Source: Rhodobacter sp. CACIA14H1
GTDB lineage: Bacteria > Pseudomonadota > Alphaproteobacteria > Rhodobacterales > Rhodobacteraceae
DNA: 38,400 bases
NCBI GenBank assembly: GCA_000500915.1
Contig: AYNO01000013.1
Coordinates: 1-38,400, forward strand
Direction of reading: 5' to 3'
Below are positions 14,918 through 38,159 of this stretch, piece by piece (the first letter of the stretch is position 1; each line of letters starts with the position of its first letter). Position numbers and translations under genes: made by a program. Under the pieces are notes generated by a model. That model had not been told where the DNA came from and searched no databases. It was given only the letters and a program-made list of their open reading frames with translations.

Positions 14918-14919
14918 GA

Positions 14920-16144: not shown

Positions 16145-16998
16145 TGTGTACGGTTTGCGGATGTTCGGACACGGTGACGGCGGACGGCAAGGCCTTCGGC
16201 CATTCCCACGGCCACGCGCATTCCCATGCGGACGGCCACCATCACCACCATGACCACGACCACGGCCATGACCACCACCACCACGGCCACCACCATTACG
16301 GCACCGGCCCCGCAGGCGTCTCCGTCCCCGGCATGTCGCAGGCCCGCCTGATCAAGGTGGAAACCTCCATCCTCGCCAAGAATGACGCCTATGCCATGGC
16401 CAACCGCCGCGTGCTCAAGGCGCTGGGCGCACTGGCCGTCAACCTCGTCTCCTCGCCCGGTTCGGGCAAGACGACGCTCCTGTGCGAAACCATCCGCCGC
16501 CTCGGCACCGCGCCCCTTGCGGTGATCGAGGGCGACCAGCAGACCAGCGCCGATGCCGACCGCATCCGCGCCACGGGGGCCACCGCCATCCAGATCAACA
16601 CCGGCAAGGGCTGCCATCTGGACGCCCACATGGTCGGCCACGCGATGGATGACCTGACCCTGAAACCCGGCTCCTTCCTCTTCATCGAAAACGTCGGCAA
16701 CCTCGTCTGCCCCGCCGCCTTCGACCTTGGCGAAGATGCCAAGATCGCCATCCTCTCCGTCACGGAAGGCGAAGACAAACCCCTGAAATACCCCGACATG
16801 TTCACCGCCGCCAAGGTGGCGATCCTGAACAAGATCGACCTCGCCCCCCATACCGCCGCCGACCTCGACGCCTATGAATCCAACCTCCGCCGCGTGAACC
16901 CTTCCATCACCATCCTGCGCGTCTCGGCCCGCACGGGGCAGGGGATGGAGGCGTGGATCCAATGGCTCCACCACGCCCGCACGGCCAAGGTGATGTGA
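16144..16998 (+). CDS. hypB: Hydrogenase nickel incorporation GTPase HypB with His-rich N-terminus
   Basis: [51 protein letters not shown]-loop; start ATG 16144 (or GTG 16141). Confidence 0.95.
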
Positions 16999-18482
16999 TG
17001 CCCGACGCCGCCCCCCGCCCCGCCATCCTTCTGGTCGATGACGAACCCCACAGCCTGCAATCCATGCGCATGGCGCTGGAGGATGAATTCGACTGCCTCT
17101 CTGCCGCCAATGCCGAACAGGCGCTGGCGATGATGGAAGAGGAATGGGTGCAGGTCGTCATCTGCGACCAGCGGATGCCGGGCCGCACGGGGGTGGAACT
17201 GCTGACCGAACTGCGCGAACGCTGGCCCGAAACGGTGCGCATCATCATCACGGGCTATACCGACCCGAACGCCATGGCGCAGGCGATCAACGATGCCGGC
17301 ATCCACCAGTTCCTGACCAAGCCGTGGCATCCCGACCAGCTCCTCATGGCCGCCCGCAACGGCACCCGCCTTTTCGCGCTGGCCCGCGACAACGAACGCA
17401 TGGCGCTGGAAATGCGCTTCCTCGCCCAGACCGCGCAGGCGAAACTGGACAAGCGCCGCACCGCCCTGCGCGAAGGCTTCGGCTTCGAAACCATCCTGCG
17501 CGCGCCCACCAGCCCGATGAACGCGCTGATCCATCAGGCGCGGCTCTACGCCACCTTCGACGTGCCGGTCCTGCTGACCGGGGAACCGGGCACCGGCAAA
17601 TCCCGCCTCGCCCGCGCGATGCACTACGCCTCGCTCCGGTCAGACAAGCCCTTCCTGTCGCTCAACCTCGCCGGAATGCCTGAAGACCTGATCGCGCTGG
17701 AACTCTTCGGCGCGAAACGCGGCATCCTGCCGGGCGGCGTGTCCCGCATCGGTCTGGTCCAGAAGGCCGATCGCGGCACCCTCTTCCTCGGCGGCATCGA
17801 AACCCTCTCCCCCGCCCTGCAACTGGCCCTCCACCGCCTGCTGGACGAAGGCACCTACTCCCCCCTCGGCGGGCAGGACGTCCTGACCTCCGGCCTGCGC
17901 CTGATCGCGGGCTCCTCCGCCGACCTTGCCGCCCGCGTCGCCGAAGGCCAGTTCCGCCCCGACCTCTACTATGCGCTGGCCGTGGCCGAACTCGCCGTCC
18001 CCCCGCTCCGCGCCCGCCGTGGCGACGTGGCGGTGCTGGCGCAGCACTACCTGTCCGAACTCTCGCTCCAGCATGGCAAGGCGACCCACGGCTTCGAAGC
18101 CGCCGCGCTGACCTTCCTCGAAAACTACGATTGGCCCGGCAACCTTCGCGAACTCCGGAACGAGGTGACGCGGATGCTGATCCACGCCGCCGACACCGTC
18201 CTCGGCGCCGACCTGATTTCCCGCCACATCCTGCAGGCCGCCCCCGGCGATGGCGGGGCCGACCGTCAGGCGCAGGTCGCGCTGATGGATGGCAGCCTGA
18301 AGGACCGCGTCGAACTGATCGAAATGCGCATCCTGCGCGAAACCCTGACCCGCCACCGCTGGAACAAAAGCCGCGCCGCGGCCGAACTCGGCCTCTCCCG
18401 CGTGGGCCTCAGGGCGAAACTGGACCGTTACGGCATCCTCGACCCGCTGGGCCGCAGCACCGCCGAGGAAGAGGAGGAATAG
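16998..18482 (+). CDS. hupR: NtrC-family response regulator HupR
   Basis: Receiver domain ([25 protein letters not shown]), AAA+ domain with GEPGTGKS, C-terminal Fis-like HTH ([29 protein letters not shown]); between hypB and hypC as in R. capsulatus. Confidence 0.92.
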
Positions 18483-18486
18483 ACCC

Positions 18487-18792
18487 ATGTGCCTCGGCAT
18501 CCCCGGCCGCATCACGGCCATCACCGACGAAACCCGCCTCATGGCCATGGCCGAGGTTTCGGGCGTCCGGCGCGAGGTGTCGGTCGCCTGCGTCGCGGGC
18601 AACGACCTGCACGCGCTGGTGGGCCAATGGGCGCTGATCCATGTCGGCTTCGCCATGGCCCTGATCGATCAGGACGAGGCGGAAAAGACCCTGCAAGCCC
18701 TCCGCGATCTGGGCGAGGCGCAGGAAACGCTGGAACAGATGCGTGCCGGCGATGCCGCGCTGGCCCAACCCGCGAAGGAACCCGCGCAATGA
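18487..18792 (+). CDS. hypC: Hydrogenase maturation chaperone HypC
   Basis: MCLGIPGRI N-terminus, size, position. Confidence 0.93.
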   Translation: MCLGIPGRITAITDETRLMAMAEVSGVRREVSVACVAGNDLHALVGQWALIHVGFAMALIDQDEAEKTLQALRDLGEAQETLEQMRAGDAALAQPAKEPAQ

Positions 18793-19928
18793 AATTCGCA
18801 TCCGAATTCCGCGACCCCGCCGCCGCCAAGGCCCTGCTGGCCGAAATCGCCCGCACCTGCGACCGTCTGGGCGCGACCCGCGCAAAGCCGGTCCACATCA
18901 TGGAAATCTGCGGCGGCCACACCCATTCCATCTTCCGCTACGGCCTCGACAAACTCATCCACGAAGGGGTCGAATTCATCCACGGCCCGGGCTGCCCCGT
19001 CTGCGTCCTGCCCATGTCCCGCGTGGACGAATGCGTGCAGATCGCCGAAAAGCCGCAGGTCATCTTCTGCACCTTCGGCGACGCCATGCGCGTGCCCGGC
19101 CACCGCAAGAGCCTGATGCAGGCCAAGGCCGACGGCGCCGACATCCGCATGGTCTATTCCCCCTTGGACGCGCTGGAACTCGCCCGCCGCAACCCCGCAC
19201 GGGAAGTCGTCTTCTTCGGCCTCGGCTTCGAAACCACCACCCCCTCCACCGCCCTCGCCATCCAGCAGGCGGCGCGGGAAGGGCTGGGGAACTTCTCGGT
19301 CTTCTGCAACCACATCACGGTGCCGGAACCGATCAAGGCCCTGCTCGACGATCCCGAAATGGTGCTGGACGGCTTCATCGGCCCCGGCCATGTGTCCATG
19401 GTCATCGGCATCCACCCCTATGACTTCATCGCCGCCGACTACGGCAAACCCATCGTCGTCGCGGGCTTCGAACCGACGGACCTGCTGCAATCCGTGCTGA
19501 TGGTCCTGACCCAGATCGAACAGGGCCGCGCGGTGGTGGAAAACCAATATGCCCGCGTGGTCCCCGAACATGGCAACGCGGTCAGCCTTGCCGCCATCGC
19601 CGATGTCTATGAACGCCGCCCCACCTTCGAATGGCGCGGACTGGGCGAGATCGATGCATCCGGCCTCCGCATCCGCCCGCGCTACGCCGCCTTCGATGCC
19701 GAAGAGAAATTCGCCATCGGCTACGGCGCCGCCTCCCGCAACGTGCCGGAACCCGAAGGCTGCGCCTGCGGGGCGGTGATGACGGGCCGCATCAAACCCA
19801 CCGCCTGCCCGCAATTCGGCAAGGGCTGCACGCCCGACATGCCGCTGGGTGCGCTGATGGTGTCGTCGGAAGGGGCCTGCGCGGCCTATTGGCAATATGG
19901 CGGCGCAAGGGCCGTTGCGGCGGAATAG
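18789..19928 (+). CDS. hypD: Hydrogenase maturation protein HypD
   Basis: MEICGGHTHSIFRYG, HGPGCPVCVLP, FGLGFETTTPSTA; ATGA overlap with hypC. Confidence 0.95.
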   Translation: MKFASEFRDPAAAKALLAEIARTCDRLGATRAKPVHIMEICGGHTHSIFRYGLDKLIHEGVEFIHGPGCPVCVLPMSRVDECVQIAEKPQVIFCTFGDAMRVPGHRKSLMQAKADGADIRMVYSPLDALELARRNPAREVVFFGLGFETTTPSTALAIQQAAREGLGNFSVFCNHITVPEPIKALLDDPEMVLDGFIGPGHVSMVIGIHPYDFIAADYGKPIVVAGFEPTDLLQSVLMVLTQIEQGRAVVENQYARVVPEHGNAVSLAAIADVYERRPTFEWRGLGEIDASGLRIRPRYAAFDAEEKFAIGYGAASRNVPEPEGCACGAVMTGRIKPTACPQFGKGCTPDMPLGALMVSSEGACAAYWQYGGARAVAAE

Positions 19929-19938
19929 GTGGCAGGCG

Positions 19939-19985
19939 GCGGGGGTTTCACCCCCGCACCCCCAGGGTATTTGGGCCGGGATGAA
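19939..19985 (+). repeat. Hairpin plus CCCCCAGGGTATTTGGGCC element in the hypD-hypE gap
   Basis: gcggggg-tttca-cccccgc hairpin then acccccagggtatttgggccgg; related inverted element near 24000. Confidence 0.5.
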
Positions 19986-19996
19986 AGGGCCGCGAT

Positions 19997-21031
19997 ATGG
20001 ACGGAACAACACAGCGACGCATTGAACGGGTGACGATGGCCCATGGCGGCGGCGGCCGCGCCATGCGCGACCTGATCGACAGCGTCTTCACCTCCGTCTT
20101 CCAGCCCCCCGGCAACGAAGACCAGGCCCGCCTGATGCATTCCGCGCTGCAGGAACCCGGTGCCCGCCTTGCCTTCACCACCGACAGCTTCGTCGTCACC
20201 CCGATCGAATTCCCCGGCGGCGACATCGGCAAGATCGCCGTCTGCGGCACCGTCAACGACCTTGCCGTGGGCGGGGCGCGGCCCCTCTGGCTCTCTGCCG
20301 CCTTCATCATCGAGGAAGGCTGCGACATCGCCCTCCTCCGCCGCATCGCCGCCTCCATGCAGGCCGAGGCGCAGGCAGCAGGCGTCCGCATCGTGACCGG
20401 CGATACCAAGGTGGTCGAACGCGGCAAGGGTGACGGCGTCTTCGTCACCACCTCCGGCGTGGGCGTCATTCCGGCAGGCCGCGACCTTGGCGCCGCCCGT
20501 ATCGCGGCGGGCGACGTGGCCATCGTCAACGGCTTCCTCGGCGACCATGGCGCGGCCATCCTTGCCGCCCGCGGCGACCTCGCGCTGGAAACCGCGCTGC
20601 ACAGCGACTGCGCCGCGCTGGGCCACCTGATGGAAACCGTCCTGACCGCCGCACCCGGCGTCAAGGCCGCCCGCGACGCCACGCGCGGCGGCCTCGCCTC
20701 CGCGCTCAATGAAATGGCGGCCGAGGCGGGGGTTGCCGTGGAACTGGACGAAACCGCCCTCCCGCTCCGGGACGAAGTCAGGGGGATGTGCGAAATCCTC
20801 GGCCTCGACCCGCTCTATCTGGCGAATGAAGGCACCCTCGTCCTCTTTTCCCCGCCCGATCAGGCCGAAGCCGCCCTCGCCGCCATGCGCAGCCGCCCCG
20901 AAGGCGCCAACGCCGCCATCATCGGCCGCGCCCTTCCCGCCCCCGCAGGCCGCGTCACGCTCCGCTCGCCTTTCGGCGGCGCAAGGATCGTGGACATGCT
21001 GGTGGGCGAACAACTGCCGCGCATCTGCTGA
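19997..21031 (+). CDS. hypE: Hydrogenase maturation protein HypE
   Basis: MAHGGGGRAMRDLI, TTDSFVVTPIEFPGGDIGKIAVCGTVNDLAVGGA, C-terminal PRIC. Confidence 0.95.
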   Translation: MDGTTQRRIERVTMAHGGGGRAMRDLIDSVFTSVFQPPGNEDQARLMHSALQEPGARLAFTTDSFVVTPIEFPGGDIGKIAVCGTVNDLAVGGARPLWLSAAFIIEEGCDIALLRRIAASMQAEAQAAGVRIVTGDTKVVERGKGDGVFVTTSGVGVIPAGRDLGAARIAAGDVAIVNGFLGDHGAAILAARGDLALETALHSDCAALGHLMETVLTAAPGVKAARDATRGGLASALNEMAAEAGVAVELDETALPLRDEVRGMCEILGLDPLYLANEGTLVLFSPPDQAEAALAAMRSRPEGANAAIIGRALPAPAGRVTLRSPFGGARIVDMLVGEQLPRIC

Positions 21032-24230: not shown

Positions 24231-25481
24231 ATGCGCTATTCCGGCTTCCGCGTGATTGCCGAGGCACTCACAGGCCACAAGGGGTGGAAACCCGCATGGC
24301 GCGACCCCGAACCGCAGGCCTCCTACGACTACATCATCGTGGGCGGCGGCGGCCACGGCCTCGCCACCGCCTATTACCTCGCCAAGGAATTCCGTCAGGC
24401 CCGCATCGCCGTGCTGGAAAAGGGCTATCTCGGCGGCGGGAACGTGGGGCGCAACACCACCATCATCCGCTCCAATTACCTGCTCGACGGGAACGAACCC
24501 TTCTACGAATTCTCGCTGAAACTCTGGGAAGGGCTGGAACAGGACTTCAACTACAACGCGATGGTGTCCCAGCGCGGCATCATCAACCTCTACCACACCG
24601 ACGCGCAGCGCGACGCCTATACCCGTCGCGGCAATGCCATGATCCTGCACGGGGCCGATGCGGAACTCCTGAACCGCGATCAGGTCCGCGCGATGTATCC
24701 CTTCCTCAACTTCGACAACGCCCGCTTCCCCATCAAGGGCGCGCTGATGCAGCGGCGCGGCGGCACCGTCCGCCATGACGCCGTCGCTTGGGGCTATGCC
24801 CGTGGGGCCGACCAGCGCGGCGTGGACCTGATCCAGAACTGCGAAGTCACCGGCATCCGCACCGAAGGCGGCCGCGTCACCGGCGTCGAAACCACCCGCG
24901 GCTTCATCGGCGCAGGGAAGGTCGGCGTCGCCGTCGCAGGCTCCTCCTCCAAGGTCATGTCCCATGTGAACATGCGCCTGCCGATGGAATCCCACGTCCT
25001 TCAGGCCTTCGTCTCCGAAGGTCTCAAACCGCTGATCGACGGCGTCATGACCTATGGCGCAGGGCACTTCTACGTCAGCCAGTCCGACAAGGGCGGCCTC
25101 GTCTTCGGCGGCGACATCGACGGCTACAACTCCTACGCCCAGCGCGGCAACATGCCGGTGGTCGAAGACGTGGCCGAAGGCGGCATGTCCCTCATGCCCA
25201 TGATCGGCCGCGCCCGCCTCCTGCGCACATGGGGCGGCATCATGGACATGTCGATGGACGGGTCACCCATCATCGACAAGACCCATATCGACGGCCTCTA
25301 TTTCAACGGCGGCTGGTGCTATGGCGGCTTCAAGGCCACCCCCGCCTCCGGCTGGTGCTTCGCGCATCTGCTGGCCACCGACAAACCCCATCCCACCGCC
25401 ACCGCCTACCGCTTCGATCGCTTCCGCAAGGGGCTGATGATCGACGAAAAAGGGCAGGGCGCGCAGCCCAACCTGCACTGA
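24231..25481 (+). CDS. mgdA: Sarcosine oxidase beta-like FAD subunit; probable N-methylglutamate dehydrogenase subunit A
   Basis: SoxB-like: YDYIIVGGGGHGLATAYYLAKEF, GGNVGRNTTIIRSNYL, GGTVRHDAVAWGYARGADQRGVDLIQNCEVTG, GGWCYGGFKATPASG; context with mgsABC/gmaS. Confidence 0.88.
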   Translation: MRYSGFRVIAEALTGHKGWKPAWRDPEPQASYDYIIVGGGGHGLATAYYLAKEFRQARIAVLEKGYLGGGNVGRNTTIIRSNYLLDGNEPFYEFSLKLWEGLEQDFNYNAMVSQRGIINLYHTDAQRDAYTRRGNAMILHGADAELLNRDQVRAMYPFLNFDNARFPIKGALMQRRGGTVRHDAVAWGYARGADQRGVDLIQNCEVTGIRTEGGRVTGVETTRGFIGAGKVGVAVAGSSSKVMSHVNMRLPMESHVLQAFVSEGLKPLIDGVMTYGAGHFYVSQSDKGGLVFGGDIDGYNSYAQRGNMPVVEDVAEGGMSLMPMIGRARLLRTWGGIMDMSMDGSPIIDKTHIDGLYFNGGWCYGGFKATPASGWCFAHLLATDKPHPTATAYRFDRFRKGLMIDEKGQGAQPNLH

Positions 25482-25493
25482 GAGGGCCGAGCC

Positions 25494-25793
25494 ATGATCA
25501 TCAACCACCCCCTCCTCGGCCCCCGCGACGCGCAGGAATTCACCTATCTCGGCGACGCCGCCCTGATCGACCGCCCGGACGGCCTGTCCTTCCCTGACGC
25601 CAACGCCGCGCAGGACGCCTTCCACGACTACCTCTATCTCCGCGACAACCCCGCAGGCGAACACCGTGAACTCTGGTTCCACGAACAGGGCGACCGCTCA
25701 TGGCTGGTCGTCACCCGCAACACCGTGACGCACGAGATCACGAAGGTCGAACTCGCCCGCGATGTGGCACGCGCAAAGGGGCGCAGCAAATGA
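25494..25793 (+). CDS. mgdB: Sarcosine oxidase delta-like subunit; probable MgdB
   Basis: MIINHPLLGPRDAQEFTYLGDA...DYLYLRDNPAGEHRELWFHEQGDRSWLVVTRNTVTHEI matches SoxD layout. Confidence 0.87.
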   Translation: MIINHPLLGPRDAQEFTYLGDAALIDRPDGLSFPDANAAQDAFHDYLYLRDNPAGEHRELWFHEQGDRSWLVVTRNTVTHEITKVELARDVARAKGRSK

Positions 25794-28741
25794 CGCAAGA
25801 GAACCGCATCAAGGGCGGCCAGATCGACCGCAGCAGGACGCTCCGCTTCACCTTCGACGGCCACCCCTATACCGGCCATCCCGGCGACACGCTGGCCTCC
25901 GCCCTGCTGGCCAACGGCGTCCGCCTGATGGGCCGCAGCTTCAAATACCACCGCCCGCGCGGCCCGATCTCGGCCGGGTCCGAAGAACCCAACGCCATCG
26001 TGGAACTCCGCTCCGGCGCAAGGCAGGAACCCAACACCCGCGCCACCGTGGCCGAGCTTTTCGACGGTCTGGAAGCCAACAGCCAGAACCGCTTCCCCTC
26101 GCTCAAATTCGACCTGATGGGAATCAACGACCGCCTCTCGCCCTTCTTCGCGGCAGGCTTCTACTACAAGACCTTCATGTGGCCCGCGTCGTTCTGGGAG
26201 AAGATCTACGAACCCATCATCCGCCGCGCCGCGGGCCTCGGCTCGCTGACCCGTCAGGATGATCCCGACGACTACGACAAGGGCTTCCTCCACTGCGACA
26301 TCCTCATCATCGGCGCTGGCCCCGCAGGCCTGATGGCCGCCCTGACCGCAGGCCGCGCCGGCGCCCGCGTCATCCTCGCGGATGAGGATTTCCGCATGGG
26401 CGGCCGCCTGAACGCCGAAACGCTGACCATCGGCAACCATTCCGGCGCCGACTGGGCCGAAGACACCGTCCGCACCCTGTCCCAGATGCCCAACGTCCGC
26501 CTGATGACCCGCACCACGGTCGTGGGCGCGATGGACCACGGCATCTACGCCGCCGTCGAACGCGTCTCCGACCACCTGCCCGTGCCAGCCGCAGGCAAAC
26601 CCCGCCAGATCCTCTGGCGCATCTACTCGGCCCACGCGATCCTCGCCGCAGGCGCCATCGAGCGCCCCATCGCCTTCGAAAACAACGACCGCCCCGGCAT
26701 TCTGCTGGCGGGCGCGCTCCGCACTTACGCCAACCGCTATGCCGTCGCCGTCGGCGACCGCGTCGCCGTCTTCACCAACAACGACGACGGCCTGCGCACC
26801 GCCACGGACCTTCAGGCCAAGGGCATCGACATCGCCGCCGTCATCGACACGCGGCAGGAAGGCGAACTCCTCTCCGGCATCCGCCACCTGAAAGGCGCAC
26901 AGGTGATCGACACCGCAGGCCGCCTCGGCCTGAAATCCGTCACCATCCGCCACGCCAACGGCAAGACGGAAACCCTGCCGGTCAATGCACTCGGCGTCTC
27001 CGGCGGCTGGAACCCGAACCTCAACATCGCCAGCCACCACCGCGGCCGTCCCGTCTGGAACGAAGGCATCGCCGCCTTCACCCCGCCCACCGACGGCCCC
27101 GCCAACCTGACCGCCGCAGGCGCGGCAGCAGGTGCGATGTCCACCCACGCCGCCCTGCAAACCGGTGCCGCCCAAGCCAACGCCGCCCTCACGGCGCTGG
27201 GCCTGCCAACCCACAGCCCCGACCTGCCAAAGGCCGAAGACGCCCCCGTGAACATCACCCCCTTCTGGTATGTCCACGAAGGCAAGGGCCGGGCATGGAT
27301 CGACCAGCAGAACGACGTCACGGTCAAGGACGTCAAACTGGCGAAGCAGGAAAACTTCACCTCCGTCGAACACCTGAAACGCTACACCACGCTGGGCATG
27401 GCGACGGATCAGGGCAAGACCGGCAACATCCTCGGCCTTGCCATCATGGCCGAACTGACGGGCCGCTCCATCCCCCAGACCGGCACCACCATCTACCGCC
27501 CGCCCTACACCCCCGTCGCCATGGGCACCCTCGCGGGCCGCTCCCGTGGTCACGAATTCAAACCCACCCGCCTGACCCCGTCGCACAAATGGGCCAGCGA
27601 ACAGGGCGCCGTCTTCGTCGAAGTCGGCATGTGGCTCCGCGCCCAGTGGTTCCCCAAGGCGGGCGAAACCACTTGGCGCCAGTCGGTGGACCGCGAGGTG
27701 CTGCAAACCCGCGCCTCCGTCGGCATCTGCGACGTCACGACCCTCGGCAAGATCGACATACAGGGCCGCGACGCAGGCGCCTTCCTCGACAAGGTCTATG
27801 CCAACACCTTCTCCACCCTTCCCGTCGGCAAGGTCCGTTACGGCCTCATGCTGCGCGAAGACGGGATCGTGATGGATGACGGCACCACCGCCCGCATGGG
27901 CGAAAACGAATGGGTGATGACGACGACGACCGCCAACGCCGTCCCGGTCTTCCGCCACCTCGAATACGTCCGCCAGTGCCTCTATCCGGACATGGACGTG
28001 CAACTGATCTCCACGACCGAAGCCTGGGCGCAATTCTCCGTCGCCGGACCCAACGCCCGCAGACTGCTGCAGAAGATCGTGGATCAGGACATTTCCGACA
28101 CGGCCTTCCCCTACATGGCCTGCGGAAACATCACCGTCGCAGGCGGCCTCCGCGCCCGCCTCTTCCGCATCTCCTTCTCGGGCGAACTGGCCTATGAAAT
28201 CGCCGTCCCCACCCGCTACGGCGACGCCATGATCCGCGAGTTGATGAAGCAGGGCGAGGAATTCGGCGCCGTCGCCTATGGCACGGAATCCCTCGGCGTC
28301 ATGCGCGTCGAAAAGGGCCATGTCGCGGGCAACGAGTTGAACGGCCAGACCACCGCACTCAACATGGGCCTCGGCAAGATGGTGTCGAAGAAGAAGGACG
28401 CCATCGGCATGGTCCTGTCGCAGCGCGAAGGGCTGACGGCCGAGGACGGCCTCCGCCTCGTCGGCGTCAAACCCGTGGACCCGTCAAAGCCCCTCACCGC
28501 AGGCTCCCACTTCCTCGACATCGGCGCGGCGCCCGTGGCGGCGAACGATGGCGGCTGGCTCACCTCCGTCGTCTATTCCCCCCACCTCGGCTCCTCCATC
28601 GCGCTGGGCTACCTGAAGAACGGCCAGACCCGCATCGGCCAGAGGATGCGTGCCGTGAACCTGCTCGCCAAGACAGAGGTGGAGGTGGAAATCGTCTCCC
28701 CCCACTTCTTCGACCCGGAAGGAGAACGCCTCCGTGGCTGA
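25790..28741 (+). CDS. mgdC: Sarcosine oxidase alpha-like subunit (FAD/NAD plus GcvT-like folate domain); probable MgdC
   Basis: SFKYHRPRGPISAGSEEPNAIVEL, ILIIGAGPAGLMAALTAGRAGARV, C-terminal GcvT-like FSVAGPNARRLLQKI. Confidence 0.9.
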   Translation: MTQENRIKGGQIDRSRTLRFTFDGHPYTGHPGDTLASALLANGVRLMGRSFKYHRPRGPISAGSEEPNAIVELRSGARQEPNTRATVAELFDGLEANSQNRFPSLKFDLMGINDRLSPFFAAGFYYKTFMWPASFWEKIYEPIIRRAAGLGSLTRQDDPDDYDKGFLHCDILIIGAGPAGLMAALTAGRAGARVILADEDFRMGGRLNAETLTIGNHSGADWAEDTVRTLSQMPNVRLMTRTTVVGAMDHGIYAAVERVSDHLPVPAAGKPRQILWRIYSAHAILAAGAIERPIAFENNDRPGILLAGALRTYANRYAVAVGDRVAVFTNNDDGLRTATDLQAKGIDIAAVIDTRQEGELLSGIRHLKGAQVIDTAGRLGLKSVTIRHANGKTETLPVNALGVSGGWNPNLNIASHHRGRPVWNEGIAAFTPPTDGPANLTAAGAAAGAMSTHAALQTGAAQANAALTALGLPTHSPDLPKAEDAPVNITPFWYVHEGKGRAWIDQQNDVTVKDVKLAKQENFTSVEHLKRYTTLGMATDQGKTGNILGLAIMAELTGRSIPQTGTTIYRPPYTPVAMGTLAGRSRGHEFKPTRLTPSHKWASEQGAVFVEVGMWLRAQWFPKAGETTWRQSVDREVLQTRASVGICDVTTLGKIDIQGRDAGAFLDKVYANTFSTLPVGKVRYGLMLREDGIVMDDGTTARMGENEWVMTTTTANAVPVFRHLEYVRQCLYPDMDVQLISTTEAWAQFSVAGPNARRLLQKIVDQDISDTAFPYMACGNITVAGGLRARLFRISFSGELAYEIAVPTRYGDAMIRELMKQGEEFGAVAYGTESLGVMRVEKGHVAGNELNGQTTALNMGLGKMVSKKKDAIGMVLSQREGLTAEDGLRLVGVKPVDPSKPLTAGSHFLDIGAAPVAANDGGWLTSVVYSPHLGSSIALGYLKNGQTRIGQRMRAVNLLAKTEVEVEIVSPHFFDPEGERLRG

Positions 28742-29300
28742 CCACCGCTTCAAACCCGTCACGCCGCTGGGCCATGACGCGCCCCATTCCGTCACCCTCG
28801 GCCCCGTGACCATCACGGAAGTCGTGGATACGGCGCTGGCCTCCCTCGCCGCCCGCCTGGGCGAAGCCAAGGCCACGGCCGACATCGCGGAAACGGCAGG
28901 CATCCCCCTGCCGCCCCCCGGCAAGGCCGCGAAGGGCGCAACCTACGGTGCCTTCTGGCTGTCGCCCGACATGTGGATGGTCGAAGCCCCCTTCGCCACG
29001 CATGAAGACATCACCGCCGTCCTGAAACCCCATTTCGGCGAAGCCGCCAGCATCACCGAACAGACCGACGCATGGGCGCGGTTCGACGTGACGGGCGCCG
29101 ACCTGCCCGCGATGTTCGAACGGCTGTGCAACTTCGACCTCCGCGCCAACGGCCCGGGATCGGCCACGCGGACGGTGATCGAACACCTCGGCTGTTACGT
29201 GGTCATCCGCGCCGAAGGCCACCTGTCCGTCATCGGCCCCCGCTCCTCGGCGGCCTCCCTGTTCCACGCGCTGGAAACGGCGGCGCGGTCGGCGTTCTGA
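28734..29300 (+). CDS. mgdD: Sarcosine oxidase gamma-like subunit; probable MgdD
   Basis: GTG start overlapping the alpha subunit; AWARFDVTGADLPAMFERLCNFDLR typical of SoxG. Confidence 0.84.
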   Translation: MADHRFKPVTPLGHDAPHSVTLGPVTITEVVDTALASLAARLGEAKATADIAETAGIPLPPPGKAAKGATYGAFWLSPDMWMVEAPFATHEDITAVLKPHFGEAASITEQTDAWARFDVTGADLPAMFERLCNFDLRANGPGSATRTVIEHLGCYVVIRAEGHLSVIGPRSSAASLFHALETAARSAF

Positions 29301-29667: not shown

Positions 29668-30333
29668 ATGGAAGACCTCGATTCCGCCGCCGAAGCCACG
29701 CTTCCCAAGTCCAAACCCGCCTTTTCGCAGGACCCGCACCGCGTCCGCGAACTGGCCGAACGCAATCTGGAAATGGCCATCGGCCGCTCCGTCCGCGCCT
29801 TCCGCCGCCAGCAGGGGATGACGGTGGCCGACCTCTCCTCCGTCACCGGCCTGTCGATCGGGATGCTGTCGAAGATCGAGAACGGCATCACCTCGCCCTC
29901 GCTCACCACCCTGCAAATCCTGTCGCACGCCTTCTCCACCCCCATCACATCCTTCTTCCGCGGCTACGAAGAAAAGCGGGAAGTTCAACATGTTAAGGCG
30001 GGCGAGCACCTCGAAATCGAACGCCGCGGCACCCGCGCCGGGCACCAGTACCACCTCCTTGGCCATATCGGATCGAATAGCTCGGGCGTGGTGGTGGAAC
30101 CCTACCTGATCACGCTGACCACCGAATCCGACACCTTCCCCACGTTCCAGCACGAAGGCATCGAACTGCTGTTCATGCTGGAGGGAGAGGTGAAGTACCG
30201 CCACGGCGACCAGCTCTTCCACCTGCAACCGGGCGACAGCCTGCTCTTCGACGCCGATGCCCAGCACGGGCCGGAAGTCCATGTCAAACTCCCCGCCCGC
30301 TACCTGTCGATCATCTGCTACCCTCAGGCCTGA
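29668..30333 (+). CDS. XRE-family HTH regulator with C-terminal cupin domain
   Basis: VRAFRRQQGMTVADLSSVTGLSIGMLSKIENGITSPSLTTLQILSHAF HTH; cupin FQHEGIELLFMLEGEVKYRHGDQLFHLQPGDSLLFDADAQHGP. Confidence 0.92.
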   Translation: MEDLDSAAEATLPKSKPAFSQDPHRVRELAERNLEMAIGRSVRAFRRQQGMTVADLSSVTGLSIGMLSKIENGITSPSLTTLQILSHAFSTPITSFFRGYEEKREVQHVKAGEHLEIERRGTRAGHQYHLLGHIGSNSSGVVVEPYLITLTTESDTFPTFQHEGIELLFMLEGEVKYRHGDQLFHLQPGDSLLFDADAQHGPEVHVKLPARYLSIICYPQA

Positions 30334-30590
30334 TGCCGCCACACCTCGTACCGGATCCGCCCGATCCGGTAGGCATCCAGAATCGACATCGCCCAGACGA
30401 ACAACCCGCCCGCATACTTGCCCACGGCCGACACGCCGGGCGCGGCGGTGGTGGCGGTGAATGCACCCAGAAGTATCATGAAAAACAGGAAGATAAGCCC
30501 CCGCACCGGCTGGCGGCTGGCCACGTGACCGACCCCCGGCAACACCACGGCAAGGGCCATGACGGCCCAGGGATGCAGCGGTTTCCTCAT
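30324..30590 (-). CDS. Small membrane protein, 88 aa
   Basis: MRKPLHPWAVMALAVVLPGVGHVASRQPVRGLIFLFFMILLGAF; overlaps the upstream gene by 4 nt. Confidence 0.72.
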   Translation of the reverse strand: MRKPLHPWAVMALAVVLPGVGHVASRQPVRGLIFLFFMILLGAFTATTAAPGVSAVGKYAGGLFVWAMSILDAYRIGRIRYEVWRHQA

Positions 30591-31276
30591 GTCGTCCTCC
30601 GTCGTTCCACCTCGGACAGCACCCCGTTCCGCAACGCCTGCGCCGCCGCCAGAAACGGCGCCAGCCGCGACGGGGGCAGCGGGTCCAGCCCCATTTCCGC
30701 ATCCCGATACAGCAGATACCGCGTCCGCGTCGCCTCCTCGGCAAGGAAGACCAGCCGCACCCCGTCGGGCGTGACCAGCACCTCCTTCAACCGCTGCATG
30801 TCCACCGCCTCCAGCACCCGCCGCACCGGATCGGCCCATGGCATCGGCCCCGGCGCATCGGTGCGGATCGCGCATTCCGGCGGAAATCCGGGCGGGGCGG
30901 GTACCTGCACGGGCAACCGCCCGAAATTGGAAAACGTCTCCATCCCCGACGCCCGCATCATCAGGTCCAGCGTGTCATGCACCGGCAGCGCCTGCGGCAG
31001 GCTGACCAGCACCCACAGCGCGGGCAGCTTGCGCACGCTCAGCATGTCGGGCACCACCTGTATGTCGAACAGATCCCCTTCATGCCGCCCCGAAAGGCGC
31101 GGGAATCCCGTGGGTTGCACCACCTCGCGCCGCTCGGTGAACAGTCCCGCGCAGGCCGCCAGATAGCCCGCCCGCCGCGCGGCCCGCCGCCCCTGCGCCC
31201 TGCCCAGCGTCCAGATGACGGCGGCACCGGCACCCAGTGCCAGCGCCGCAGCCCCTATCGTTCCGATCTCTTCCAT
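30587..31276 (-). CDS. Conserved-looking hypothetical protein, single N-terminal TM anchor
   Basis: MEEIGTIGAAALALGAGAAVIWTLGRAQGRRAARRAGYLAACAGLF; 229 aa ORF coupled with 30324..30590. Confidence 0.72.
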   Translation of the reverse strand: MEEIGTIGAAALALGAGAAVIWTLGRAQGRRAARRAGYLAACAGLFTERREVVQPTGFPRLSGRHEGDLFDIQVVPDMLSVRKLPALWVLVSLPQALPVHDTLDLMMRASGMETFSNFGRLPVQVPAPPGFPPECAIRTDAPGPMPWADPVRRVLEAVDMQRLKEVLVTPDGVRLVFLAEEATRTRYLLYRDAEMGLDPLPPSRLAPFLAAAQALRNGVLSEVERRRTT

Positions 31277-31297: not shown

Positions 31298-31320
31298 ACG
31301 GCCCGCGTCAAGCGGGCCGT
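31298..31320 (-). terminator. Terminator of the permease operon
   Basis: acggcccgc-gtcaa-gcgggccgt perfect 9-bp stem; minus strand continues ttttccg. Confidence 0.75.
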
Positions 31321-31327
31321 CACTCCC

Positions 31328-32767
31328 TCAATACCCCCGCGGCTTCGGCCAGGGCATCGTGAACTGGTCCGCCCGCTTCACGAAACGATAGCGCCAGAAG
31401 TGGAACCACAGCGACACCACGATGTAGAAGCTGACCATCGCGATGAGCTGCGTGCCATAGCCCAGGAACACCGCGAAATAGGTCACCGCACACAGGCAGA
31501 TCAACAGGATCGCCGGGATCGGGTGGAAGGGATGCTCATACCCCCGCTTGATCGTGTCCAGCGGCCATTTCCGCCGGAACAGGATCACGTTGATCGGCAT
31601 GAAGGTATATCCCAGCAGCCCCGACAGGATCGAGAAGGTGATCACCTGATCCAGCGGCGCCCCCAGCGCGAAGATCAACGCGATGGGAACAAGGAAGATG
31701 ATCGCGCGATAGGGCGTCCGGTAGGTCGGATGCACCGCCCCGAACCATTGCGGCAGGTAATGGTCGCGGCCCATGGAAAACCACGCCCGCGACGCATCGT
31801 TGATGCAGCCATTGGCCGAAGCCAGCGTCGCAAACAGCGTCCCGAAGCCGAGGATGACGACCAGCGCCGTCGATCCCGTCAGCTGCGCCGCGCTGAACAG
31901 CGGGGCAACCGCCCCGTCCACGCCATCGCCAAGGTATTCCCACGGCAGATAGCCGACGCAGACATACCATGTCAGCGTCGCCGCGATCAGCAGCGTCATG
32001 ATCCCCGCCAGCGTCCCGAAGGGCAGCGCCCGCGCGGGCGACCGCACCTCTTCCGCCGCCTGCGTCGTGCCTTCGATGCCAAGATAGAACCACAGCCCGA
32101 AATGCATCGCCGCCAGCACGCCCAGCCAGCCATAGGGCAGGGCGGCCTGACCCGACATCAGGTCGGCATGGGCCATCATCGTCCCGTCGCTCCACGGGGC
32201 CGAGGCAAAGAACAGCACCAGGATTGCGACAAAGGCGAAGGCCGTGATGACAAGGTTGAAGGTCAGCGTCGCCAGCACGCCGCGATAGTTCAGCCATGCA
32301 AGGAACATGATCGCCAGCACGATGAAGGGCCGGTCCGATACCGGCTCCACGGCCCCCGTCATGTCGGCCGCCACCGTGATCAGATAGCCCAGCGTGATGG
32401 CATTCGCCGCCTCCAGCATCGTATAGGCGAAGACCAGATAGAGGCCGACGTTGAACGCCATCAGCGGCCCCACGATATGCTTGGCCTGCGTGTATTGCCC
32501 GCCCGCGGCGGCGACGGTCGATGTCACCTCCGAGTCGATCATGGCCACGCAGGAATACAGTATCCCCGCGAACCAGCAGGCGATCAGCGCCGCATAGGCC
32601 CCGCCTTTGCCGACGGCAAAGTTCCAGCCCATGTATTCGCCGACCAGAACGATCCCCACGCCCAGCGCCCAGACATGCGCCGGACCCAGGACGCGCAGAA
32701 GGCCGACCTTGGTGCCATGCGGCCCCATGCCGTCCATCGTCTTCGATGTGATGTCGGTATTTGCCAT
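31328..32767 (-). CDS. APC-superfamily amino acid/amine permease (ethanolamine permease-like)
   Basis: About 12 TM segments; GPAHVWALGVGIVLVGEYMGWNFAVGKGG, GIEGTTQAAEEVRSPARALPFG. Confidence 0.88.
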   Translation of the reverse strand: MANTDITSKTMDGMGPHGTKVGLLRVLGPAHVWALGVGIVLVGEYMGWNFAVGKGGAYAALIACWFAGILYSCVAMIDSEVTSTVAAAGGQYTQAKHIVGPLMAFNVGLYLVFAYTMLEAANAITLGYLITVAADMTGAVEPVSDRPFIVLAIMFLAWLNYRGVLATLTFNLVITAFAFVAILVLFFASAPWSDGTMMAHADLMSGQAALPYGWLGVLAAMHFGLWFYLGIEGTTQAAEEVRSPARALPFGTLAGIMTLLIAATLTWYVCVGYLPWEYLGDGVDGAVAPLFSAAQLTGSTALVVILGFGTLFATLASANGCINDASRAWFSMGRDHYLPQWFGAVHPTYRTPYRAIIFLVPIALIFALGAPLDQVITFSILSGLLGYTFMPINVILFRRKWPLDTIKRGYEHPFHPIPAILLICLCAVTYFAVFLGYGTQLIAMVSFYIVVSLWFHFWRYRFVKRADQFTMPWPKPRGY

Positions 32768-32771
32768 GATG

Positions 32772-32939
32772 TCACCCGTTCAGCTTGTGCTGTTCGGTCA
32801 TCGCCTCGATCTCGCCCTCGCGGGACGAAGTCAGGACGTCTTCGGAATAGGTGGTATCGGTCCTGTACCAATCCCACAGCATGTGCAGCGCGAAGAGTGC
32901 GGAAAGCACCCATGCGCCCGTTTCGATCAGTGGCCACAT
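32772..32939 (-). CDS. Small single-TM protein, 55 aa (below the ORF-track cutoff)
   Basis: MWPLIETGAWVLSALFALHMLWDWYRTDTTYSEDVLTSSREGEIEAMTEQHKLNG; 4-nt gap to the permease start. Confidence 0.65.
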   Translation of the reverse strand: MWPLIETGAWVLSALFALHMLWDWYRTDTTYSEDVLTSSREGEIEAMTEQHKLNG

Positions 32940-32952
32940 GTCGGCTGCTCCC

Positions 32953-33330
32953 TCATTTCCCGTCGAACTTCTCGGCGATCACCTCGCGGTATTCCTTCTC
33001 GGACAGGCGCAGCATCAGGGCGAAGTAGCCCACGATCACCACCACCATCAGCGCCAGTGCGCCCCATGTGAAGGAATAGTCGAACCGCGCCGTGATCAGG
33101 TCATGGGCCGACGCCGGATCATAGCCCAGCGCCGTCCAGCGTTCGACCATCACCGCGTTCTGGCCAAGGCTTTCCCATGTCGGCTCGTCCGCCGGAACCG
33201 GCAGTTTGGACGATCCGGCAAGGCCCAGCCACAGCGGGATGTACAGCGCGCCGATCGACATGATCAGCAGGACGATGACGTCGATCACCTGCCCCATCTT
33301 GCCCTGTTTCGGGGGGATATAGCGTGCCAT
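32953..33330 (-). CDS. Small membrane protein with two predicted TM segments, 125 aa
   Basis: MARYIPPKQGKMGQVIDVIVLLIMSIGALYIPLWLGL...FTWGALALMVVVIVGYFALMLRLSEKEYREV. Confidence 0.75.
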   Translation of the reverse strand: MARYIPPKQGKMGQVIDVIVLLIMSIGALYIPLWLGLAGSSKLPVPADEPTWESLGQNAVMVERWTALGYDPASAHDLITARFDYSFTWGALALMVVVIVGYFALMLRLSEKEYREVIAEKFDGK

Positions 33331-33334
33331 CCCG

Positions 33335-33622
33335 TCACCTCTTCGCGGCGCGGGCTTCATCAAGGAACTTGATGTCCAGCCCGTACATGAAGTCGCGGTC
33401 CTCGCGGTAATGCCGCAGCATCGCCATGATGGCGGCGGTGTTCAGCACAAGCACGATGAACCCGCCGATCAGAAGCATCGTCCGCGCCCCTGAAGACGGC
33501 GCGAGCGACCAGGTGGCAATCGCCACGAAGATGACGGCCAGCCACAAACCGATGACGAATGCCCAGGCAACGGACACGTCCCGTTTGTGCATGGCCTGAA
33601 TCCTTGAATCCAGGTCTGACAC
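33335..33622 (-). CDS. Small membrane protein with two predicted TM segments, about 95 aa
   Basis: GTG start at 33622 preceded by gggagga; VSDLDSRIQAMHKRDVSVAWAFVIGLWLAVIFVAIATWSL...MLLIGGFIVLVLNTAAIMAML. Confidence 0.7.
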   Translation of the reverse strand: MSDLDSRIQAMHKRDVSVAWAFVIGLWLAVIFVAIATWSLAPSSGARTMLLIGGFIVLVLNTAAIMAMLRHYREDRDFMYGLDIKFLDEARAAKR

Positions 33623-33679
33623 AGTTTCCTCCCTTGGCCCTCTCTTTTGCCGCTCCATGTCCGGGCCTTGACACGGGGG

Positions 33680-33698
33680 TGTTCGCTGAGCGTGAACA
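33680..33698. promoter_or_regulatory. Candidate operator (imperfect palindrome) upstream of the permease operon
   Basis: TGTTCgCtgagcGtGAACA; related TGTTCACTGAG at 29650-29660 in front of the XRE-cupin gene. Confidence 0.4.
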
Positions 33699-33757
33699 TT
33701 CTTTACCCACAGGGAAGCACCCCTGCGGCATCCTGTCAAAGGAAATGCATAGGAATT

Positions 33758-33782
33758 GGGCAATATGAAAACATCATTGCCC
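33758..33782. promoter_or_regulatory. Candidate operator in the divergent permease/mgsA promoter region
   Basis: GGGCAAT-N11-ATTGCCC perfect inverted repeat in an AT-rich intergenic segment. Confidence 0.4.
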
Positions 33783-33868
33783 GTAGGTTAAAAAAGTTTC
33801 TTCGCAGTTGAACGGACAATTCTTCGGTGCTAGCGTTACCGCCAGAAGCGAACAGAGGAGTCGATGCC

Positions 33869-34765
33869 ATGTGTGGAATCGTCGGGCTTTTCCTGAAAGA
33901 CCCCAAGCTAGAGCCGCAGCTCGGTGCCATGCTCACCGACATGCTCATCACCATGACGGACCGCGGCCCCGACTCGGCGGGCATCGCGATCTATGGCCGC
34001 CCCGAAAAGGGCAAGGCCAAGCTGACCGTGCAATCCCCCGCGCCCGAGGCCGATTTCGCCACGCTGGCCGAAGACCTCGGCCGCGCCATCGCCGCCAAGG
34101 TGACGGGTCAGGTCAAGGACACGCACATGGTCCTCGAACTGCCCGAAGACCGGCTTGACGCCGCCCGCCACGCCATGCGCGACCTGCGCCCGAAGGCCAA
34201 GGTGATGTCGGCAGGCGAAGGCATCGAAATCTACAAGGAAGTGGGCCTTCCCAAGGACGTCGCCGCCCGTTTCGACGTGTCGCGCATGTCCGGCACCCAC
34301 GGCATCGGGCACACCCGCATGGCCACCGAATCCGCCGTCACCACGATGGGCGCACACCCCTTCTCGACCGGCGCGGACCAGTGCCTCGTCCATAACGGGT
34401 CGCTGTCCAACCACAATTCCGTCCGCCGCGTGCTGCGTCAGGCGGGCATGACGTTCGAGACGGAAAACGACACCGAAGTCGCCGCCGCCTTCATCAGCCA
34501 CAAGCTTCAGGAAGGCGCCAAGCTGGGCGAGGCGATGGAAGCCACGCTCACCGACCTTGACGGCTTCTTCACCTTCGTCGTCGGCACGAAAAACGGCTTC
34601 GGCGTCGTCCGCGACCCGATCGCCTGCAAGCCCGCCGTGATGGCCGAAACCGACCAGTATGTCGCCTTCGGCTCCGAATACCGCGCGATGGTCAACCTGC
34701 CGGGCATCGACAGCGCCCGCGTCTGGGAACCGGAGCCTGCCACCGTCTATTTCTGGGAACGCTGA
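33869..34765 (+). CDS. mgsA: Class II glutamine amidotransferase-like subunit, N-methylglutamate synthase subunit A (GlxB-like)
   Basis: MCGIVGLFLKDPKLEPQLG with catalytic Cys2; GHTRMATESAVTT; VHNGSLSNHNSVRR. Confidence 0.88.
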   Translation: MCGIVGLFLKDPKLEPQLGAMLTDMLITMTDRGPDSAGIAIYGRPEKGKAKLTVQSPAPEADFATLAEDLGRAIAAKVTGQVKDTHMVLELPEDRLDAARHAMRDLRPKAKVMSAGEGIEIYKEVGLPKDVAARFDVSRMSGTHGIGHTRMATESAVTTMGAHPFSTGADQCLVHNGSLSNHNSVRRVLRQAGMTFETENDTEVAAAFISHKLQEGAKLGEAMEATLTDLDGFFTFVVGTKNGFGVVRDPIACKPAVMAETDQYVAFGSEYRAMVNLPGIDSARVWEPEPATVYFWER

Positions 34766-34769
34766 GACC

Positions 34770-35459
34770 ATGCAGACATTCGACCTCTCCGCCCAAGGCT
34801 TGCGGGCGCTGAACTCGACCCTCCACGGCCTCAAGGGCCAGACGAACATGACCTCTTGGGAAATCATCAATCCCAAGGGCGCCCATGCCATCGCCGTCGG
34901 CCTCGACGCGCCTGTCGATGTCACCGTGCGCGGATCGACCGGCTACTACTGCGCCGGCATGAACAAGCAGGCGACCGTCCGCGTCAAAGGCTCTGCCGGT
35001 CCGGGCGTGGCGGAAAACATGATGTCGGGCACCGTCATCATCGACGGCGACGCCAGCCAGTATGCGGGCGCCACCGGCCGTGGCGGCCTGCTGGTCATCA
35101 AGGGCAACGCCTCCTCGCGCTGCGGCATCTCGATGAAGGGCATCGACATCGTGGTGCATGGGAACATCGGCCATATGTCCGCCTTCATGGCCCAGTCGGG
35201 CAACATGGTCGTCCTCGGCGACGCGGGCGAAGCCCTTGGCGACTCCCTCTACGAAGCCCGCCTTTTCGTGCGCGGCTCGGTCAAGTCCCTTGGTGCCGAC
35301 TGCATCGAAAAAGAGATGCGCCCCGAACACCTCGCCCTTCTGGCGGACCTGCTGAAGCGGGGCGAAGCCGACCATCTGGCCAAGCCCGAGGAATTCAAAC
35401 GCTACGGCTCCGCCCGCAAGCTTTACACCTTCAATATCGACAACGCGTCGTCCTACTGA
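34770..35459 (+). CDS. mgsB: GltB C-terminal-domain-like protein, N-methylglutamate synthase subunit B (GlxC-like)
   Basis: Repeated-Gly beta-helix: GSTGYYCAGMNKQATVRVKGSAGPGVAENMMSGTVIIDGDASQYAGATGRGG. Confidence 0.88.
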   Translation: MQTFDLSAQGLRALNSTLHGLKGQTNMTSWEIINPKGAHAIAVGLDAPVDVTVRGSTGYYCAGMNKQATVRVKGSAGPGVAENMMSGTVIIDGDASQYAGATGRGGLLVIKGNASSRCGISMKGIDIVVHGNIGHMSAFMAQSGNMVVLGDAGEALGDSLYEARLFVRGSVKSLGADCIEKEMRPEHLALLADLLKRGEADHLAKPEEFKRYGSARKLYTFNIDNASSY

Positions 35460-35472
35460 GGCTGCAACAAGA

Positions 35473-36801
35473 ATGAGCGATTTCCCCCGTACGCCGCCCA
35501 AGCAGTCGTGGACCTTCTCCAACGACATCAACGCCGAAATCCGCCGCGCCGCCGCAACCGGCATCTACGACATCCGTGGCGGCGGATCGAAGCGCAAGCT
35601 TCCCCACTTCGACGACCTGCTGTTCCTCGGCGCCTCCATCAGCCGCTACCCGCTGGAAGGCTACCGCGAGAAATGCGCGACCGACGTCTGGCTCGGCACC
35701 CGCTACGCCAAGAAACCGATCCACCTCGACATCCCCGTGACCATCGCAGGCATGTCCTTCGGCGCCCTCTCCGGCCCGGCGAAAGAGGCCCTCGGTCGCG
35801 GCGCCTCTGCCGCAGGCACCTCCACCACCACTGGTGACGGCGGCATGACGGAAGAGGAGCGGGGCCATTCCAAGACCCTCGTCTATCAATACCTCCCCTC
35901 GCGCTACGGCATGAACCCCGACGACCTGCGCCGCGCCGACGCGATCGAAGTCGTGGTGGGGCAGGGGGCAAAGCCCGGCGGCGGCGGGATGCTGCTCGGG
36001 CAAAAGATTTCCGACCGCGTCGCCCAGATGCGCAACCTGCCCAAGGGCATCGACCAGCGCTCTGCCTGCCGCCATCCGGACTGGACGGGGCCGGACGACC
36101 TTGAAATCAAGATCCTCGAACTGCGCGAAATCACCGACTGGGAAAAGCCGATCTACGTGAAAGTCGGCGGCGCACGCCCCTATTACGACACTGCGCTCGC
36201 CGTGAAGGCCGGCGCTGACGTCGTGGTCCTCGACGGGATGCAGGGCGGCACCGCCGCCACGCAGGACGTCTTCATCGAAAACGTCGGGATGCCCATCCTC
36301 GCCTGCATCCCGCAGGCCGTGAAGGCGCTGCAGGACCTCGGGATGCACCGCAAGGTGCAACTGATCGTGTCAGGCGGCATCCGCACCGGGGCCGACGTGG
36401 CCAAGGCCATGGCGCTGGGCGCAGATGCCGTGGCCATCGGCACCGCGGCCCTCGTGGCGCTGGGCGACAACGACCCCGCGCTGGAGGCCGAATACAACAA
36501 GCTCGGCACCACCGCCGGCGCCTATGACGACTGGCACGAAGGCAAGGACCCTGCGGGCATCACCACGCAGGACCCCGAACTCTTCAAACGTTTCGACCCC
36601 ATCCTCGGTGGTCGCCGCCTGAAGAATTACCTCAAGGTCATGACGCTGGAGGCGCAGACGATCGCCCGCGCCTGCGGCAAGAATCACCTGCACAATCTGG
36701 AACCCGAAGACCTCTGCGCCCTGTCCATCGAAGCCGCCGCAATGGCTGGCGTCCCGCTGGCAGGCACGAACTGGATCCCGGGCCGGAACGGCAGCTTCTG
36801 A
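35473..36801 (+). CDS. mgsC: FMN-binding glutamate synthase-like protein, N-methylglutamate synthase subunit C (GlxD-like)
   Basis: GMSFGALSGPAKEALGRGASAAGTSTTTGDGGM, KPGGGGMLLGQKIS, SGGIRTGADVAKAMALGADAVAIGTAAL. Confidence 0.9.
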   Translation: MSDFPRTPPKQSWTFSNDINAEIRRAAATGIYDIRGGGSKRKLPHFDDLLFLGASISRYPLEGYREKCATDVWLGTRYAKKPIHLDIPVTIAGMSFGALSGPAKEALGRGASAAGTSTTTGDGGMTEEERGHSKTLVYQYLPSRYGMNPDDLRRADAIEVVVGQGAKPGGGGMLLGQKISDRVAQMRNLPKGIDQRSACRHPDWTGPDDLEIKILELREITDWEKPIYVKVGGARPYYDTALAVKAGADVVVLDGMQGGTAATQDVFIENVGMPILACIPQAVKALQDLGMHRKVQLIVSGGIRTGADVAKAMALGADAVAIGTAALVALGDNDPALEAEYNKLGTTAGAYDDWHEGKDPAGITTQDPELFKRFDPILGGRRLKNYLKVMTLEAQTIARACGKNHLHNLEPEDLCALSIEAAAMAGVPLAGTNWIPGRNGSF

Positions 36802-36851
36802 AGACACACACGGCGCAAAGCCGGACAAAGGACAGGACAGGGAGTTTTTTC

Positions 36852-38159
36852 ATGGCAAAAGATCTTGCCAAATGGGCCGCCGAACGTGGCGTGAAGTACT
36901 TCATGATCTCCTACACCGATCTCTTCGGTGGTCAGCGCGCAAAGCTCGTGCCGACGCAGGCGATCAACGACATGGCCGAAGAAGGGGCAGGTTTCGCCGG
37001 TTTCGCCACATGGCTTGACCTGACCCCCGCCCATCCGGACCTCATGGCCGTGCCGGACCCCGACAGCGCGATCCAGCTGCCGTGGAAGAAGGACGTCGCA
37101 TGGGTCGCCGCCCGCGCCACGATGGAAGGCAAGCTCGTCGATCAGGCCCCCCGCAACGTGCTGGAACGGCTGATCGGCGAAGCCGCCAAGGAAGGCCTGC
37201 GCGTGAAGACCGGGGTGGAACCCGAATTCTTCATCCTGAACGCCGAAGGCACCGCCGCCTCCGACATCTACGACACGGCGGAAAAGCCCTGCTACGACCA
37301 GCAGGCGATCATGCGCCGCTACGACGTCATCAGCGAGATCTGCGACTACATGCTGGAACTCGGCTGGGAGGCCTACCAGAACGACCACGAAGACGCGATC
37401 GGCCAGTTCGAGATGAACTGGAAATACGACGATGTCCTCCAGACCGCCGACAAGCACAGCTTCTTCAAGTTCATGGTGAAGTCGGTGTCGGAAAAGCACG
37501 GCTTCCGCGCCACCTTCATGCCCAAACCCTTCAAGGGGTTGACCGGGTCGGGCTGCCACGCTCATATCTCGGTCTGGTCGCTGGACGGCAAGACCAACGC
37601 CTTCTCCGACCCGACGAAGGAGCTGTCGCTGTCGGATCAGGGGCGCAACTTCCTCGGCGGGATCATGAAGCACGCCTCGGCCCTTGCCGCGATCTGCAAC
37701 CCGACCGTCAACAGCTACAAGCGCATCAACGCCCCCCGCACCTCCTCCGGCGCGACATGGGCACCCAACACCGTGACCTGGACCGGCAACAACCGGACCC
37801 ACATGGTCCGCGTCCCCGGCCCCGGCCGCTTCGAACTGCGCCTGCCCGACGGCGCGGCAAACCCCTACCTGCTGCAGGCCGTCATCCTTGCCGCAGGCCT
37901 CGATGGCGTGCGCACCAAGGCCGACCCCGGCCGCCGCTACGACATCGACATGTACCAGCAGGGCCATACCGTGAAAGGTGCGCCCAAACTGCCGCTGAAC
38001 CTGCTCGACGCGCTGCGCGAATACGACAAGGACAAGACGCTGAAGGCCATGATGGGCGAGGAATTCTCGGCCGCCTACCTGAAGCTCAAGCATCAGGAAT
38101 GGAACAGCTTCGTCTCCCACTTCTCGCGCTGGGAACACGAGAACACGCTGGACATCTGA
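36852..38159 (+). CDS. gmaS: Gamma-glutamylmethylamide synthetase (type III glutamine synthetase-like)
   Basis: Glutamine synthetase fold motifs (GVEPEFFILN, FMPKPFKGLTGSGCHAHISVW, NRTHMVRVPGPGRFELRLPDGAANPYLL); directly downstream of mgsABC. Confidence 0.9.
   Translation: MAKDLAKWAAERGVKYFMISYTDLFGGQRAKLVPTQAINDMAEEGAGFAGFATWLDLTPAHPDLMAVPDPDSAIQLPWKKDVAWVAARATMEGKLVDQAPRNVLERLIGEAAKEGLRVKTGVEPEFFILNAEGTAASDIYDTAEKPCYDQQAIMRRYDVISEICDYMLELGWEAYQNDHEDAIGQFEMNWKYDDVLQTADKHSFFKFMVKSVSEKHGFRATFMPKPFKGLTGSGCHAHISVWSLDGKTNAFSDPTKELSLSDQGRNFLGGIMKHASALAAICNPTVNSYKRINAPRTSSGATWAPNTVTWTGNNRTHMVRVPGPGRFELRLPDGAANPYLLQAVILAAGLDGVRTKADPGRRYDIDMYQQGHTVKGAPKLPLNLLDALREYDKDKTLKAMMGEEFSAAYLKLKHQEWNSFVSHFSRWEHENTLDI

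Follow-up and report, generated by a model that had tools for sequence, protein, structure and literature searches.

A compact minus-strand operon of small membrane proteins and an APC-superfamily permease lies among the N-methylglutamate (NMG) pathway genes of Rhodobacter sp. CACIA14H1, which raises the question of whether the permease works together with these small proteins and which compound it carries. The locus was analysed within a stretch of 38,400 nucleotides, hereafter the window, and in related genomes. The NMG pathway is a widespread methylamine route in marine and soil bacteria, and no dedicated methylamine importer or permease for NMG clusters was named in the literature that we found; the operon provides a testable candidate for such an importer. 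The neighbouring gmaS, mgs and mgd genes on which the initial annotation had relied were identified as mgsABC-gmaS (glxBCD-glnT-like; positions 33872 to 38159, plus strand), which cover the first half of the pathway and are divergent from the operon, and mgdABCD (soxBDAG-like; 24231 to 29300, plus strand), which cover the second half, the gene assignments following PMC5023235. A gene for an XRE-cupin (PuuR-like) regulator (29668 to 30333, plus strand) is convergent with the operon. As judged from the ORF translations only, a large [NiFe]-hydrogenase cluster occupies positions 1450 to 21031, upstream of the methylamine genes.

Analysis of the operon revealed three small membrane ORFs of 95, 125 and 55 aa ahead of the permease, separated by gaps of 4, 13 and 4 nt, which agrees to the base with what had initially been described. 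The first, sm1 (33335 to 33622, minus strand), has two predicted TM helices (residues 18-36 and 49-67) and a conserved, charged C-terminal tail, RHYREDRDFMYGLDIKFLD; it begins with GTG, and since the alignment places an ATG at this position in relatives, the start is right. The second, sm2 (32953 to 33330, minus strand), has predicted TM helices at residues 15-33 and 91-109, which flank a conserved loop of about 55 residues, and its C-terminal tail, SEKEYREVIAEKF, is also conserved and charged. The third, sm3 (32772 to 32939, minus strand), has a single likely TM helix, which in the window copy falls below the hydropathy cutoff used, followed by the conserved tail TYSED.LTSSREGE.EA. The permease itself (31328 to 32767, minus strand) is 479 aa long and matches Pfam AA_permease at 2.8e-32. 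The recurrence of sm1-sm3 in order at the loci described below, together with purifying selection (pN/pS of 0.12-0.45 against six relatives, with the exception of 0.60 for sm2 against locus L005), indicated that they are genes and not chance ORFs. Neither these three nor the two genes that follow the permease, orf229 and gene 6, matched any Pfam or NCBIfam family at cutoff, so the small proteins do stand outside the described families, as had been supposed. The DUF485, DUF4212 and DUF997-type families, which are known small partners of SSS symporters, were absent from the Pfam matches of sm1, sm2 and sm3.

To compare the gene order across relatives, 101 loci were assembled, comprising 80 loci from a permease scan with one genome per species (80-94% identity), 13 regions from genomes picked up by the sm1 profile, 7 plasmid regions and the window. 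The results showed that six genes, sm1-sm2-sm3-permease-orf229-gene 6, stand in the same order on one strand at 96 of the 101 loci, with median gaps of 2, 9, 7, 52 and -4 nt along the unit. Four of the five incomplete loci (L022, L037, L096 and L105) lie at contig ends, and the fifth, L170 from Paraburkholderia, does have sm3, diverged beyond the reach of the search. The unit therefore extends over six genes, including orf229 (30587 to 31276, minus strand), which encodes an N-terminal TM helix and a conserved domain, and gene 6 (30324 to 30590, minus strand), which overlaps orf229 by 4 nt and encodes an 88-aa small membrane protein with a weak DUF6677-like match below the Pfam cutoff. Its hosts are Alpha- and Betaproteobacteria, namely Rhodobacterales, Hyphomicrobiales and Burkholderiales. 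Wherever the contig reaches, sm1-sm3 are present beside the permease, and all sm1 matches in the class, phylum and family samples adjoin the permease. Orthologues of the permease (at least 64% identity) were found in only 4 of 34 NMG-pathway genomes, the same four that have sm1. Below these orthologues there are no intermediates: the most similar remaining permeases of NMG genomes have 24-30% identity and are mostly ethanolamine-permease-like; six of them, when tested, scored 323-384 bits as ethanolamine permeases (one above the family cutoff), and the sm1 profile found nothing in the genomes that hold these distant homologues. Strict co-conservation of a partner gene with its permease is what would be looked for in a heteromeric APC transporter, and the initial annotation had made its reading depend on the small ORFs being conserved with the permease in relatives; both are borne out by these neighbourhoods. 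The unit is thus real, deeply conserved and undescribed in the families and literature examined, and five uncharacterised protein families gain a fixed partner, the permease.

The operon had initially been thought to end in a clear terminator behind the permease. A perfect 9-bp GC-rich stem with a 5-nt loop, followed by TTTT, does exist at positions 31298 to 31320 (minus strand), but the operon continues beyond it, because orf229 and gene 6 (31276-30587 and 30590-30324), both co-conserved, begin 51 nt downstream. The hairpin is therefore intercistronic and internal to the unit, and a terminator that ends the operon is ruled out. Of 99 loci, 89 have a GC-rich hairpin (minimum free energy of -15 kcal/mol or lower) in the gap that separates the permease stop from orf229, and only 32 have a TTTT run anywhere in this gap. 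We infer that the hairpin serves as an internal attenuator or mRNA-stabilising element, letting the transporter part exceed the rest, so that orf229 and gene 6 would perhaps be made at a lower level.

Genes that are transcribed together may still belong to two systems, and sm1-sm3, orf229 and gene 6 might constitute a membrane system of their own, such as a sensor, which shares only its transcript with a permease acting alone. The lack of a recognised fold in orf229 would agree with such an arrangement. The confident AlphaFold model of orf229 (pLDDT 94, pTM 0.89) starts with a long helix at the N-terminus, continues with a largely beta domain containing short helices, and closes with a helix at the C-terminus. 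A Foldseek search of the PDB gave a best E of 0.17 and thus no meaningful match, and the orf229 sequence matched nothing in Pfam or PDB. The predicted fold may be new, or a counterpart may simply have been missed by a structure search that covered the PDB. However, sm1-sm3 and the permease are inseparable in 101 loci from two proteobacterial classes, at median gaps of 2-9 nt, which argues against two independent systems. The charged, conserved tails of sm1, sm2 and sm3 and the nearly invariant C-terminal tail of the permease (RYRFV.R..QFTMPWP.P.GY) point in the same direction, as their conservation suggests that they are contact surfaces. We therefore regard a separate co-transcribed system as somewhat unlikely and favour a permease with its own small subunits.

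As for what such a transporter would carry, the distribution of the unit points to the NMG pathway. An NMG gene (mgsA, mgsC, gmaS or mgdA at more than 60% identity within the fetched stretch) lies beside the unit at 79 of the 101 loci, and among the remaining 22 there are 20 with mgsC (at least 70% identity) elsewhere in the genome or plasmid. The two exceptions without mgsC are G071, an 82%-complete MAG with a 50% paralogue only, and L171, a plasmid-only record. The background frequency of mgsC is 34 in 280 class genomes. The association of the unit with the NMG pathway gave a Fisher p of 8e-4 in the class sample, and of 0.005 in the family sample when a contig-edge mgsC fragment in G604 was included (0.06 under the stricter first threshold), values that overstate independence because the loci are phylogenetically correlated. 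Genomic linkage and co-occurrence with gmaS/mgs/mgd, the marks of an NMG accessory system, were thus found for this unit, which occurs almost only in methylamine-using bacteria and is therefore probably a methylamine uptake system of several parts.

The reverse dependence does not hold, as 30 of the 34 NMG genomes in the class sample are without the unit, and G684, from the genus of the window, has mgsC at 97% identity and zero sm1 match. It follows that the unit is patchy even within a genus and cannot be the sole methylamine route. Members of the Amt family can conduct methylammonium, and Amt resembles the unit in that its membrane proteins adjoin gmaS/mgs genes, although the two families are unrelated. 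In six NMG clusters lacking the unit, Amt is linked to NMG genes, and in one genome (G165; locus L099, positions 14188-15642) an Amt gene lies immediately downstream of the unit, so that this genome has both candidate methylammonium carriers, which rules out strict exclusivity between them. A role of the unit in methylamine import would thus make it one solution among several.

The same linkage is seen in individual genomes. On pSymB of Sinorhizobium meliloti Ak57, with pathway gene names assigned by homology, the order is tdm-like, oxidoreductase, dmm-type, purU, XRE regulator, unit, gmaS-mgs, GlxA regulator and mgd, and in the genomes of genus g238 dmm-type and NMG genes flank the unit. On plasmid paAMD1 of Aminobacter niigataensis MD1, mgs-gmaS-mgd-ppc-glyA and then the unit (six genes, O1Y97_RS25720 to RS25745) lie within 20 kb, and the published account describes most of the plasmid methylamine cluster as induced on dimethylamine and metformin (PMC9699525). 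On plasmid pAMI6 of Paracoccus aminophilus, mgsABC-gmaS and the unit (JCM7686_RS21935-21960) are divergently oriented; the genome paper names NMG operons and tmoP, and the unit goes unmentioned in its main text (PMC4543880).

TmoP of Methylocella silvestris (NF053774) is likewise an APC permease from the same type of island, and the compound it carries, TMAO, is a methylated amine. It belongs, however, to another branch with 23% identity to the window permease, and NF053774 was not among the NCBIfam matches of the latter. At locus L107, where gmaS and mgsC are present, a gene for this TMAO permease (NF053774, 870 bits) lies between them and the unit, so that TMAO is already served there.

The permease is clearly a member of the APC superfamily, scoring 112.5 bits with AA_permease (cutoff 24.6) and 105 bits with AA_permease_2 (cutoff 27), and its best-scoring named family is the ethanolamine permease TIGR00908. 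This family assignment, the PuuR-like regulator nearby and the saccharopine-dehydrogenase-family gene (homospermidine-synthase-like) that follows the unit in Aestuariivirga-type genomes (L067, positions 8779-10206; L069; L078) could suggest that a polyamine or ethanolamine-type permease has been hitch-hiking in methylotrophy islands. However, its score of 183.2 bits is far below the equivalog cutoff of 381.75, its identity to the ethanolamine permeases is 24-30%, and the inspected genomes with ethanolamine-type homologues have no sm1 match. The NMG pathway, moreover, is present in nearly all unit-bearing genomes, even when non-adjacent, and homologues of the PuuR-like regulator also recur in NMG clusters, including clusters without the unit. 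A hitch-hiking permease thus seems very unlikely, and a carrier belonging to the NMG pathway is the better reading.

The first transmembrane segment bears on the substrate. In APC amino-acid permeases, the carboxylate of the substrate is bound by the part of TM1 that is unwound. The corresponding motif of the permease is G43-E44-[YF]-[MT]-G-W-N49 (G43-E44-Y-M-G-W-N49 in the window), in which E44 is unchanged across 16 diverse orthologues, and it is similar in form to that of the ethanolamine-type homologues (G-[EDH]-F-x-G-W-N), which take a small amine that has no carboxylate. Such a pattern with E44 fits a small amine cation. Another compound linked to the pathway, such as dimethylamine, N-methylglutamate, gamma-glutamylmethylamide (imported or exported) or glutamate, might be carried in place of methylamine, given that several genomes have dmm-type neighbours and that amino acids are common cargo of APC permeases. 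We consider this unlikely, because the invariant glutamate occupies the site at which amino-acid permeases bind the carboxylate, and because ethanolamine is the substrate of the nearest characterised family; dimethylamine use, moreover, is not required for the unit, since no dmm genes were found in the window.

The reading that we prefer, with a probability of roughly 0.6 judging from the sequence evidence, is an uptake system dedicated to methylated amines, with monomethylamine as the most likely substrate and with a permease core and small subunits. The earlier proposal of a multi-component amine transporter is retained in this form, on the strength of strict co-conservation, the absence of a described family and the tie to the NMG pathway, although its boundary at the hairpin is not. 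The APC permease would be the transport core, in which E44 in the unwound TM1 would bind the amine, and import of the methylammonium cation would feed the cytoplasmic N-methylglutamate pathway. Around the permease, sm1, sm2 and sm3 would be small subunits acting in assembly, stability or gating, and orf229 and gene 6 would be accessory or regulatory parts. Uptake could follow the membrane potential, and a methylammonium uniport would suffice.

The initial annotation had remarked that APC permeases normally act alone, which is a fair rule with exceptions, such as the SLC7 light chains, which pair with one-TM SLC3 heavy chains bearing a large ectodomain, and GkApcT with its one-TM partner MgtS, an E. 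coli protein. GkApcT (PDB 5oqt), the closest solved sequence to the window permease (1.4e-21), was crystallised with MgtS packed on TM5, which shows that a one-TM protein can dock there on an APC permease; MgtS had been supplied by the host used for expression, and its effect on the melting temperature was slight (PMC5803215). In contrast, the window unit encodes three small proteins of its own, none with recognised relatives, and their association with the permease is one that we infer from the genes. At or near the position of the TM5 lysine of GkApcT, the alignment places Ala/Phe in the permease, so its ion coupling may differ from that of GkApcT; a structure prediction of the permease was of low quality (pLDDT 57, 12 similar sequences) and was set aside. 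In its stronger form, which we put forward tentatively and hold to be less than even in likelihood, the unit would encode an undescribed hetero-oligomeric APC carrier specific for methylamine, in which the permease needs three obligate small subunits and is joined by orf229 as a membrane-anchored accessory protein, possibly with a new fold. If true, it would add a rare example from bacteria of an APC permease that has small subunits of its own.

The region between the unit and mgsABC-gmaS (33623 to 33871), which the two divergent operons share, contains conserved blocks in the alignment. Kept in ten Rhodobacteraceae are the block GTTCAACTG.GAAGAAACTTTTTTAACC and TTGACAG upstream of sm1. A search for a shared operator found no second copy of the former block in the window, and a GTTC...GAAC palindrome before sm1 was rejected as such an operator, as it recurs only in L004 among the loci scanned. 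At the betaproteobacterial locus L170, on a plasmid of Paraburkholderia caribensis, a gene for a GCV_T-like aminomethyltransferase and a further permease-like gene come after the unit.
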